Source of the DNA: a bacterium
GTDB lineage: Bacteria > Pseudomonadota > Alphaproteobacteria > Rhizobiales > Aestuariivirgaceae
Length of the DNA: 64,000 nt
NCBI GenBank assembly: GCA_022842165.1
Contig: JALHQC010000009.1
Span: forward strand, 1 to 64,000
Reading direction: 5' to 3'
A program made the translations under genes and the position numbers. The notes below the pieces were generated by a model that had not been told where the DNA came from, did not search any database, and saw only the letters and a program-made list of their open reading frames with translations. Shown piece by piece: positions 12,980 through 53,130 of this stretch (within the stretch, counting starts at the first letter, position 1; each line of letters opens with the position of its first letter).

Positions 12980-13024
12980 CCCGCCCACGAACGCAGGCTT
13001 GCGAAAGCGGCGTGAGATGAATGT

Positions 13025-13101
13025 GCAGCTGTAGCTCAGTTGGTTAGAGCACTAGATTGTGGATCTAGGGGTCCCCCGTTCGAGCCGGGGCAGCTGTACC
13101 A
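13025..13101 (+). tRNA. tRNA-His (GTG), alphaproteobacterial type
   Basis: A full cloverleaf is visible: acceptor GCAGCTG/CAGCTGT, D arm GCTCAGTTGGTTAGAGC, anticodon stem-loop CTAGA-TTGTGGA-TCTAG with anticodon GTG, T arm CCCCG-TTCGAGC-CGGGG, and an encoded CCA at 13099-13101. The base before G1 is T, so G-1 is not encoded. Position 72 is U (a G1-U72 pair) and the discriminator is A73. Most bacteria encode G-1 and C73; the U72/A73 form is known from a group of alphaproteobacteria with an unusual HisRS. Confidence 0.95.
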
Positions 13102-13121
13102 TTCCTCCCGGGGCTTCGGGA

Positions 13122-13295
13122 TCAGAAGATCGCCTGTCCTGCCATCACCGCCAGCACGATGAAGAGAACGAAGATCGCGAGCGCGATGAAGAACAGCCAT
13201 TTCGCAATGGTCTTCGCCCCCGACGCGATGCCGGTGAAGCCGAAGGCGCCGGCGATGATCGAGATCACAAGAAAGATCAGTGCCCATTTGAGCAT
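13122..13295 (-). CDS. DUF1328 small membrane protein
   Basis: A 57-residue peptide that starts [20 protein letters not shown], has a short polar turn ([13 protein letters not shown]) and a second hydrophobic helix ending AVMAGQAIF. Two transmembrane segments with this spacing and the internal GFTGIA motif are the DUF1328/YtjA family, an inner-membrane peptide of unknown function often induced by stress. ATG 13295 has GGAGGA 8 nt upstream. A stress-type promoter lies at 13342-13366. The gene sits between ureG and tRNA-His and is unrelated to the urease set. Confidence 0.85.
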
Positions 13296-13341
13296 GTGTG
13301 AAATCCTCCGGAACGCCCGCGCGCTGCGGGCTCATTCCGGT

Positions 13342-13366
13342 AATGTCTGCTTCCACAACTTGTTCC
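13342..13366 (-). promoter_or_regulatory. Near-consensus EcfG promoter
   Basis: On the minus strand GGAAC (13366-13362), a 16-nt spacer and CATT (13345-13342), one base away from the CGTT consensus. It points at the DUF1328 gene, a typical general-stress target. Confidence 0.45.
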
Positions 13367-13378
13367 GGGCAAAATGCC

Positions 13379-14005
13379 TCATGCCGCGCTCAGGCCCCCC
13401 GCCTTCTCGATGAAGGCGACGATGTCGGCGAGCCCCTTCTGCCGCAAGAGATCGGTGAACACATAGGGCCGGGCCCCCCGCACCGTCTTCGTGTCGCTTT
13501 CCATCACGTCGAGGTTCGCCATCACATAGGGCGCCAGGTCGGCCTTGTTGATGATGAGCAGGTCGGATCTGGTGATGGCAGGCCCGCCTTTCCGCGGAAT
13601 CTTCTCGCCCTGGCAGACCGAGATCACATAGAGCGAAATGTCGGCCAGGTCGGGCGAGAAGGTGGCCGCCAGGTTGTCGCCGCCCGATTCGATGAAGATC
13701 ACGTCGAGGTCCGGATGGCGCTTCGTCATCTCGTCGATGGCGGCCAAATTGATGGAGGCATCCTCGCGAATGGCGGTATGTGGGCAGCCGCCGGTTTCCA
13801 CCCCCATGATGCGATCCTCAGGCAGTGCCTGCAGCCGGTTGAGGATGAGCGCGTCTTCCTTCGTGTAGATGTCGTTGGTGATGGCGGCGATCGAGTATCT
13901 GGCCGACATCGCCTTGCAGAGTTTCTCCGTCAGCGTGGTTTTTCCCGAGCCAACCGGACCGCCGATGCCGACGCGCAGCGGGCCATTCGATGATTTAAGG
14001 CTCAT
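13379..14005 (-). CDS. ureG: Urease accessory GTPase UreG
   Basis: 208 residues. UreG is the SIMIBI-class GTPase that drives nickel delivery to urease with UreD, UreE and UreF. The P-loop GPVGSGKT is at 16-23, the nickel-binding Cys-Pro-His lies in [13 protein letters not shown] near 72, [13 protein letters not shown] follows near 105, and the guanine-specificity motif NKAD near 153. The start overlaps the end of ureF by 4 nt, giving translational coupling. It is the last gene of the train that begins at glcD. Confidence 0.96.
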
Positions 14006-14811
14006 GTGCGGAACACTCTCGAGTACTGGGTTTCATGTTTCATCGCGGCGATATCGGCCAGGATGGTGATCGCGCCAAGCTGGTCGAGCGTTGCACCGCC
14101 TGCGCGCGTGGCAGTGGCGGCGATGACGGGCATCAGGTCGCGCAAGGCCTCGAGCCCCGCCGTCTGCCCGAGCGGCACAAGCCGCACAGCAACGGAAGTG
14201 AGTGCCGCGCAGAAACCCTGAAGATAGGCGAGCAGGGCGTGGTGTTTATCCACTCCCATCGCCGCACATGCCATGCCAGCAGCGATGGGATAAGCAATCT
14301 CGTCCTCGCCCCGCGTGAGCGGGGAGAGGGCGAGCGCTTGCGAGCGCTGCGAAGCAGCCGGGACGGGGACCCGTTGCGAAGCAATGGGGGAGGAGAGGGG
14401 CACCCGGTCTCCGTCAAAGGCAAAGCCCGGTTGCCCCTCTCCTATCCCGCCTGACGGCGGGCCCCTTTCCTCTCCCCTCTCACGAGGGGAGAGGACACGT
14501 GCCGAAATCGCAAAACTCCGTCCAAGCTGTGTCGTCTCGAAATGCCGTTCCTTCGATGTCGCCAGCGCCAGGGCCAGTTCATTCAGTTCCACGGGGTCAT
14601 CCTCCCAGCAGCGCGCAAACAGCACGGCGTCGTTCCAGCTGGAGCCGCGCGTGAGAAGATCGCCAATCCACGTTTTCAATTCATCCGCACTTGTCACCAG
14701 ATTGCTGTCGATGGCCCATTCGAGCCCATGGCTATAGGCGAACTGCCCCGTCGGGAATGCGGGCGACATCCAGTTCAGCAGCAGGAGAAGCTGTTGCGCC
14801 TCAATGCGCAT
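14002..14811 (-). CDS. ureF: Urease accessory protein UreF with in-frame repeat insertion
   Basis: 269 residues, longer than usual for UreF (about 210-240). The N-terminal half ([35 protein letters not shown]) and the C-terminal half ([43 protein letters not shown]) are ordinary UreF. Between them, residues about 106-170 are arginine/proline/glycine-rich and unlike UreF. The DNA there is a palindromic repeat (14302-14496) that keeps the frame, in place of the short loop expected in homologues. UreF links UreG and UreD on apo-urease. Whether the protein still works is unknown, but the rest is intact. The start is 2 nt after the ureE stop. Confidence 0.92.
14302..14496. repeat. Palindromic repeat inside ureF (family D)
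   Basis: Bounded on one side by a perfect hairpin CCTCTCCCCTC/GAGGGGAGAGG (14469-14494) and on the other by CCCCGC/GCGGGG (14309-14320), with further stems between. The segment is about 195 bp, 65 codons, and contains no stop in the ureF frame. It resembles the intergenic element at 52981-53130, which has the same CCTCTCCC/GGGAGAGG hairpins at both ends. Confidence 0.8.
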
Positions 14812-14813
14812 GT

Positions 14814-15256
14814 TCAATGTCCATGGGAGTGATAGGCGCCATGCTCGGGGTGGAAGGGTTCGGACACATCCGTCACCGTTGCTCCCAAGGTTTCCAGCAT
14901 ATGGCAGATGATGCGGTCGCGGCGGATCAGGATGCGGTGTTCTTCGATCTGCGCAGGCAGGTGCCGGTTGCCGATGTGCCAGACCAGCTGCATGAGATGC
15001 GTCTGGTCGCGCCCGCGGATGTCCATCAGCTCTTCTTCCGCTGCGATCACTTCCGCCACGCGCCCGTCGTCCAGAACCAGAAGATCGCCGTGTTCGAGCT
15101 TCGCTGCCCTTTCGAAATCGACCATGATCTCGTCGCCATGTTGCAGCGTGATGCGCTTGCGCCGGATGTGGCGCTGGTCGGCATCGAGCACCACGATGTC
15201 GAACGGCGTATCGCCCAAAGGCGCGGCGCGGCGGAACGATGTGGCCCGCAGCGTCA

Positions 15257-15257
<1 letters not shown>
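14814..15257 (-). CDS. ureE: Urease nickel chaperone UreE
   Basis: 147 residues. UreE is the dimeric nickel-binding chaperone that hands metal to UreG. The N-terminal peptide-binding domain (RRKRITLQHGDEIMVDFERA) is followed by the metal-binding domain with HLMQLVWHIGNRHLPAQIEEHRI near 88-110 and HMLETLGATV. The C-terminus is a short histidine tail (HPEHGAYHSHGH), a typical extra nickel site. ATG 15257 overlaps the ureC stop by one base (TGATG), so translation is coupled. Confidence 0.95.
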
Positions 15258-16960
<1,703 letters not shown>

Positions 16961-52980: not shown

Positions 52981-53130
52981 GTCCTCTCCCGCTCCGGCGG
53001 GAGAGGACAGGGGCCCGCGCCGTTTCAGGCGTGGGAAAGGTGAGGGGAAGTCAAGTTTCGCTGTTCCGCGTTTCCTCACCTCCCCATCGCTGTCGCGATG
53101 GGTCCCTTCCTCTCCCGCAGGCGGGAGAGG
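52981..53130. repeat. Palindromic repeat in nucleoside operon (family D)
   Basis: A 150-bp element with strong hairpins at both ends: GTCCTCTCCCGC/GCGGGAGAGGAC (52981-53008) and CCTCTCCCGC/GCGGGAGAGG (53109-53130). Inside lie CCTCACC/GGTGAGG and CATCGC/GCGATG arms. It separates the binding-protein gene from the ATPase gene and may stabilise the upstream mRNA so that more binding protein is made. Confidence 0.85.

Follow-up and report, generated by a model that had tools for sequence, protein, structure and literature searches.

REP/RIME-like palindromic repeats probably land in permissive loops of UreF, where selection on ureF and ureG keeps the cases that stay in frame. In the window, by which we mean the whole stretch of 64,000 nucleotides analysed, ureF is interrupted by a 195-nt palindrome that we call element A. 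An earlier note on this DNA had presented the insertion as a lone case. That picture was incomplete: three repeat families occupy the same loop in three genomes, and a fourth event affects another UreF loop.

The interrupted ureF gene

The genes around the insertion, and the insertion itself, are as follows.

13379..14005, minus strand: ureG, an ORF whose ATG overlaps the ureF stop
14002..14811, minus strand: ureF, 269 aa, interrupted by the repeat yet open throughout; Pfam UreF PF01730, E 8.3e-31
14814..15257, minus strand: ureE, an ORF directly upstream of ureF
14302..14496, no strand assigned: element A, a 195-nt palindromic repeat corresponding to UreF residues 106-170, with ends GTCCTC...GAGGAC

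The two neighbouring ORFs are presumably ureG and ureE, judging by position and sequence. The source genome of the window (G000) is a 4.30-Mb draft in 117 contigs. It had been judged a probable member of the Hyphomicrobiales, and six of the best eight named contigs in our homologue search are indeed labelled Rhizobiales or Hyphomicrobiales (L062-L065, L067, L068). The ureF product scores 107.8 bits against PF01730 (cut-off 23.3), matching profile positions 1-150 of 151, and has no NCBIfam match at E 0.001. All 24 residues that are invariant in a 47-row UreF alignment are retained, and the adjacent ORFs are open. Since the ureG ATG overlaps the ureF stop, translation of the two genes is probably coupled. 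Beside the urease cluster lies a tRNA gene at 13025-13098 (Rfam tRNA, 65.1 bits), whose anticodon, read by eye, is GTG (His).

The earlier note had located an in-frame palindromic repeat at UreF residues 106-170, and its coordinates are right to the base: the element spans 65 codons, in frame with ureF and stop-free. In an AlphaFold2 model built from 47 aligned UreFs, mean pLDDT by tens of residues drops from 82-94 in the flanking helices to 44-59 across residues 111-170. A helix at 87-105 precedes the insert and another at 174-184 follows it, and short helices are drawn at 109-112 and 152-158. As modelled, UreF probably carries a long, disordered loop made from element A. The model resembles Helicobacter pylori UreF (4hi0_A, TM 0.68/0.79). 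In that protein, R179 and Y183 have a role in dimerisation and the tail loops are touched by UreG, as described in the text of PMC3792862. The insertion precedes the equivalents of R179 and Y183 in sequence (query residue 175 matches chain residue 160).

Element A and its copies

Element A is a composite of hairpins, and it has a relative elsewhere in the window.

14304..14329, no strand assigned: end hairpin of element A, one mismatch, by reading
14468..14495, no strand assigned: perfect 12-bp hairpin at the opposite end of element A, by reading
14386..14448, no strand assigned: central hairpin of element A, with 84% complementary arms of 25 nt and a 13-nt spacer
14328..14360, no strand assigned: 33-nt segment that, of 18 aligned copies, is carried by the ureF copy and by L002 alone; its edges may be a few bases off
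52981..53130, no strand assigned: intergenic palindrome belonging to a related subfamily

The outer arms, 28 nt each and 139 nt apart, are 89% complementary. Both end hairpins had been called perfect, which is true of 14468-14495 and fails by a single base pair at 14304-14329. As RNA, positions 14300-14500 fold at -130.4 kcal/mol; shuffled sequences average -95.0 +/- 5.0 (z -7.0), and none of 200 does as well. Among Rfam models run over 13000-16000 at a permissive threshold, only tRNA passes its gathering score; miRNA and snoRNA models placed on element A score far below their own thresholds and were rejected.

As the earlier note had proposed, the DNA of the block was searched against the whole genome. 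In G000 the search returned 109 match rows, many of them one copy on both strands, and the 30 loci drawn from this genome merge into at least 22 distinct places, one of which is ureF. Lengths were measured for 20 other copies and lie between 159 and 168 nt in 18 of them (the bounds of L021 and L030 are misplaced); the ureF copy at 195 nt and L002 at 198 nt both contain the extra segment of about 33 nt. With 84.8% identity to the consensus, the ureF copy falls inside the range of 17 other copies (79.2-93.8%) and is thus an ordinary member of element A. Element-A-like stretches were also detected in the sister genome G034 by translated match (G034:C6:26489-26773 and G034:C96:4702-4914, weak protein matches), so the element is not confined to G000.

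The intergenic element at 52981-53130 had been taken for the same kind of repeat. Kinship is borne out by 77% identity over 70 nt at one end, by shorter matching stretches and by a palindrome plan like that of element A; sameness is not, as it forms a separate subfamily whose own copies share 70-75% identity over most of their length. It gave no row in the element-A genome search, a soft absence given that 40 of 48 candidates were scored.

Three repeats in one linker

UreF homologues were gathered from 80 relatives, 49 of them with a match, and from named genome contigs, of which the best 80 were kept. The resulting set holds 110 loci, of which 102 remain distinct when compared over the last 90 residues. 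In 105 of the 110 loci the segment from LGRSF to AY measures 21-31 aa, and it is long in five: 79 aa in G000, 65 in L069, 57 in the two loci supplied by G034 (L032 and L061) and 51 in G040 (L045). The earlier note had asked whether the block is unique to this UreF. The element-A block is absent as such from the other aligned loci, none of which shares it as a conserved stretch of protein. When 109 rows were scored against the uninterrupted UreF of L062, insertions of at least 12 aa downstream of the start, placed by their sequence context, occurred in this linker only.

With the L062 protein as query and UreF called at E <= 1e-10, a survey of 69 genomes of the family found UreF in 34. Three of these are split, at L062 positions 110/111 in G000, 108/108 in G034 and 108/110 in G040, and in each of them both halves lie in one open frame. 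The G034 insert is element B, of about 117 nt, with ends CCCTCATCC and GGATGAGGG. The G040 insert is element C, an 84-nt head-to-head dimer with CGTC ends that is CGTC-REP-like. With both strands counted, element B returned 40 rows from G034, 26 from G000 and, in G040, 8 short ones; for element C there were 63 rows in G040, and G000 and G034 each yielded a single fragment of 21-26 nt. No significant similarity was found between A, B and C in pairwise comparison, and a plasmid collection returned no match to A or B, although its low-complexity filter may mask them. The alignments thus indicate that three repeat families entered one UreF linker, in three lineages. By simple arithmetic, three strikes at one site would be rare under uniform placement over some 214 residues; if about seven inter-helix loops are allowed, two further strikes on the first loop have a chance of about 1 in 49.

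A Mesorhizobium-labelled MAG (L069:2001-2768) has about 41 extra residues at the same linker. We considered this insert as a fifth repeat and rejected it, as it has no other genomic copy beyond scraps of 23-32 nt. Not every insert at this linker is therefore a repeat.

A fourth insertion in a second loop

In a class-wide sample of 210 genomes, 57 have UreF (called at E <= 1e-12). Besides G000, the only split cases are G485 and G612, both of genus g184 in another alphaproteobacterial family, and the split falls at UreF residues 67-76. UreF is present in five of the ten genomes of that family: G485, G612 and G657 carry the insert, G655 has an empty site, and the ureF of G659 is broken by a contig start in this region. 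Inspection by eye suggests that this is the second place where UreF varies in length, 59 of 109 rows having 4-11 extra residues.

The insert itself is a CGTC-REP dimer with outward CGTC at both ends (by eye). Its units have an 8-position stem with an A-C mismatch at the first pair, a 4-nt loop and a CCA tail, and by eye they agree with the definition of a CGTC REP in the text of PMC3733652, which names a CGTC tag, an 8-9 bp stem with a loop of 4-5, a CCA tail and dimers. The 27-nt arm recurs once more, without a mismatch, in 400 kb sampled of a 2.3-Mb G485 contig, at a distance of 1.8 kb from ureF; no such copy turned up in five rounds of single-base shuffling. The g184 arms and element A have a 17-nt hairpin core in common, so the families are not wholly unrelated.

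At the start of G659 contig C44 (L237), ureF is broken near the REP. The residues that precede the broken gene resemble what we take to be the end of an IS30-type transposase, as if an IS had targeted the REP within ureF.

Other interrupted frames in the source genome

Repeats also lie within other frames of G000, one of which has homology on both sides of the repeat.

L210:846-1730 = C52:9438-10322: TIGR01459 HAD hydrolase with 18 extra in-frame codons matching half-element B

The half-element (C52:9793-9844) lies inside this HAD-type hydrolase, and the profile match runs across it. Its 18 codons are absent from all three orthologues aligned; within the genus, 28 of 37 genomes match the protein to some degree, though not always with an orthologue. 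By this comparison, the HAD protein is a second in-frame repeat insertion in G000. In all, about 29 distinct stop-free frames of at least 150 codons span an element. Ten of these were profile-searched (nine each against NCBIfam and Pfam), and homology on both sides of the element was found only in L210; the domains of L008 and L201 start only downstream of the element, and the seven other searched frames have no family. More in-frame cases may exist among the roughly 19 frames that remain.

For element A itself, 9 of the 21 other places have a stop-free frame of at least 30 codons on both sides. A second copy in a gene with homology on both sides was not found among these nine candidates, one of which (L008) was profile-searched and the rest judged by eye. 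In L008 (about 1441-1700, G000 C62), a short lipoprotein-like signal peptide, FILAVFALTLAAC, precedes lysA, and immediately upstream of the peptide, in the same frame, is a copy of element A (by eye). The peptide is presumably LptM-like, and the element-A copy may supply its basic N-terminal part.

Relation to known repeats

Repeats within ORFs are already known, both as REPs and as Rickettsia palindromic elements. The latter are palindromic repeats of about 150 bp found in frame within genes of known function, as described in the text of PMC10969869. The earlier note had likened the ureF insertion to them. The likeness, drawn by features alone, holds for an in-frame, stop-free palindrome in a gene of known function; a second in-frame element-A gene did not appear among the nine candidate copies, one of them profile-searched and the others judged by eye. 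The Rickettsia families occupy many unrelated genes and have a conserved peptide, whereas here one gene has received several families.

Intragenic GTAG/CGTC REPs, according to the main text of PMC3733652, occur in ORFs, often as dimers; CGTC predominates in Alphaproteobacteria and TGTC is a reported variant of the tag. Element C and the g184 insert resemble CGTC REPs in their CGTC ends and dimer form. In element C, CGTC stands at the left end in 18 of 20 copies and at the right end in 19 of 20, and the consensus has 8-bp stems and 4-nt loops, without a CCA tail. Element A has CGTC or TGTC on the left in 12 of 17 copies and on the right in 16 of 17 (28 of 34 ends), and the ureF copy has such a tag on both sides, so element A may be a long relative of the CGTC repeats. 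It differs from a CGTC REP in its longer stems, which lack the leading AT, and in its body of 159-198 nt; both A and B are longer, multi-hairpin mosaics than intragenic REPs. Large palindromic mosaic repeats are familiar from rhizobial intergenic regions as RIMEs (Rhizobium-specific intergenic mosaic elements). RIMEs are intergenic whereas the ureF copy is intragenic, and the likeness is one of description only.

Selection and the reading frame

In g184 the boundaries of the insert are shared and its middle is homologous, which suggests that it entered once. If so, the three species diverged afterwards and UreF was maintained as a protein with the insert inside. Pairwise dN/dS is 0.10, 0.15 and 0.15 downstream of the insert, 0.28, 0.28 and 0.24 upstream of it, and 0.39, 0.33 and 0.85 in its middle. 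Judged by these ratios, g184 UreF has been retained under purifying selection with its insert. The flanks of the G000 ureF have dN/dS of 0.09-0.17 against G034 and G006, values that mostly reflect time before the insertion; selection after insertion was measured in g184 alone.

Over about 16.6 synonymous sites per pair, the arms of the g184 insert (L231, L232, L236) are without a single synonymous change, against pS of 0.29-0.57 in their flanks. Their one or two nonsynonymous differences fall in the codon before the CGTC tag. This identity may result from selection on DNA or RNA, or from conversion among copies. One could envision the UreF linker as a docking site that repeatedly takes up different selfish palindromes as coding sequence and now and then retains them for a use, for example where a hairpin in the coupled ureF-ureG message sets chaperone stoichiometry, the identical g184 arms being a trace of selection for such use; we regard this as rather unlikely. 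It is also unlikely that the insert in ureF is kept for a function of its own, be it a hairpin that tunes ureF-ureG translation or mRNA stability, or a peptide that serves as a useful linker in the nickel-delivery complex. Three families in one loop, the synonymous identity of the g184 arms and the overlap of ureG with the ureF stop would fit such a role. However, 31 of the 34 UreF genomes of the family have no split, the inserts vary in both length and sequence, constraint on the middle of the g184 insert is loose (dN/dS 0.33-0.85), and identical arms may come from gene conversion between repeats.

Frames open by chance are common in these repeats: 61 of 120 are stop-free in element A, 53 of 96 in B and 38 of 120 in C. 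Copy lengths are divisible by three in 10 of 20, 3 of 16 and 2 of 20 cases, respectively. With about half of its frames open and half of its lengths divisible by three, element A provides, by its frame and openness alone, weak evidence. Across UreF, all four repeat insertions (A, B, C and g184) are in frame and stop-free, which frame alone would yield in 1 of 81 cases. Element C measures 84 nt in ureF, and 18 of 20 other sampled copies are not a multiple of three. These counts favour selection acting after insertion over a coding design built into the repeats.

The same counts bear on the idea that ureF of G000 is a recent pseudogene, disrupted by the element and open by luck. The insert makes up 24% of the protein, chance openness and length in element A are as just given, and no relative was found with this copy, so that post-insertion selection is not measurable in G000. 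But the four insertions are in frame together, g184 UreF is under purifying selection despite its insert, the 24 invariant residues of G000 UreF are present and the neighbouring ORFs are open. We consider a pseudogene quite unlikely.

How the repeat may have entered and stayed

We favour instead a sequence of events in which a dispersed REP/RIME-like palindrome landed in the linker between two UreF helices. Element A would have been copied or moved in, and about ten native codons replaced or displaced, for a net gain of 55 codons; the corresponding losses are about six codons in G034 and about one in G040. As the element is in frame and stop-free, ureF would be read through it in translation. 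The linker would be permissive, other repeat families having landed there in two related lineages, and the added loop would be dispensable and nearly neutral to UreF. Selection on ureF and ureG would then remove frame-breaking insertions and leave in-frame ones: the cell would need ureF, and a frameshift could also hurt ureG, whose start overlaps the ureF stop.

A different view of the shared site is that it reflects a DNA target preference of the mobilising enzyme and not the tolerance of the protein. The three strikes fall within four residues, and GTCTTC, which is like the ends of element A, opens the linker in three of the seven empty relatives compared (L062, L033, L035), with GAAGAC closing that of L062. 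An exact swap of the native linker between these hexamers is a possibility, and the length fits (24 - 10 + 65 = 79 codons). But both hexamers occur only in L062, the right-hand one being missing in the other six empty relatives; the bodies of A, B and C differ, as do the ends of B; and target duplication is lacking. Target-site duplication, a MITE trait, amounted to a 2-nt match in 3 of 20 element-A copies and none in the rest (with L021 and L030 wrongly bounded and L020 bounded by hand), and was seen in 0 of 16 copies of B and 0 of 20 of C. Y1 transposase (PF01797), the mark of a resident RAYT, has one match each in G485 and G612 and none in G000, G034, G040 and G657, a soft absence in draft genomes. 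Target preference in place of protein tolerance has little probability.

An artefact of assembly could be imagined for a dispersed repeat in a draft of 117 contigs, but the UreF halves keep frame and order between ureE and ureG and analogous insertions occur in other genomes, making this very improbable.

A probably tolerant loop in UreF

In the open-access literature, supplements excluded, we found no report of UreF with a palindromic insertion, and ureF is not among the intragenic REP cases found in the main text of PMC3733652, supplementary gene list aside. For different repeats at one site of one gene we found one precedent, recB, in which different REPs occupy about the same site in X. 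campestris and X. oryzae (main text of PMC3733652). What is new here is that several element families converge on one protein loop, with empty sites alongside, and that a further UreF insertion is retained under measured selection. Interrupted genes of this kind are split in UreF profile searches, which serves as a warning.

The Rickettsia palindromic elements raised the question of whether selfish repeats can become protein without killing the gene, and each insertion has often been seen just once. Different repeats at the same spot suggest that UreF has a spare loop tolerant of genetic clutter. With its separate insertions, the UreF loop amounts to a replicate experiment done by nature on the question of which protein loops can take up new sequence.
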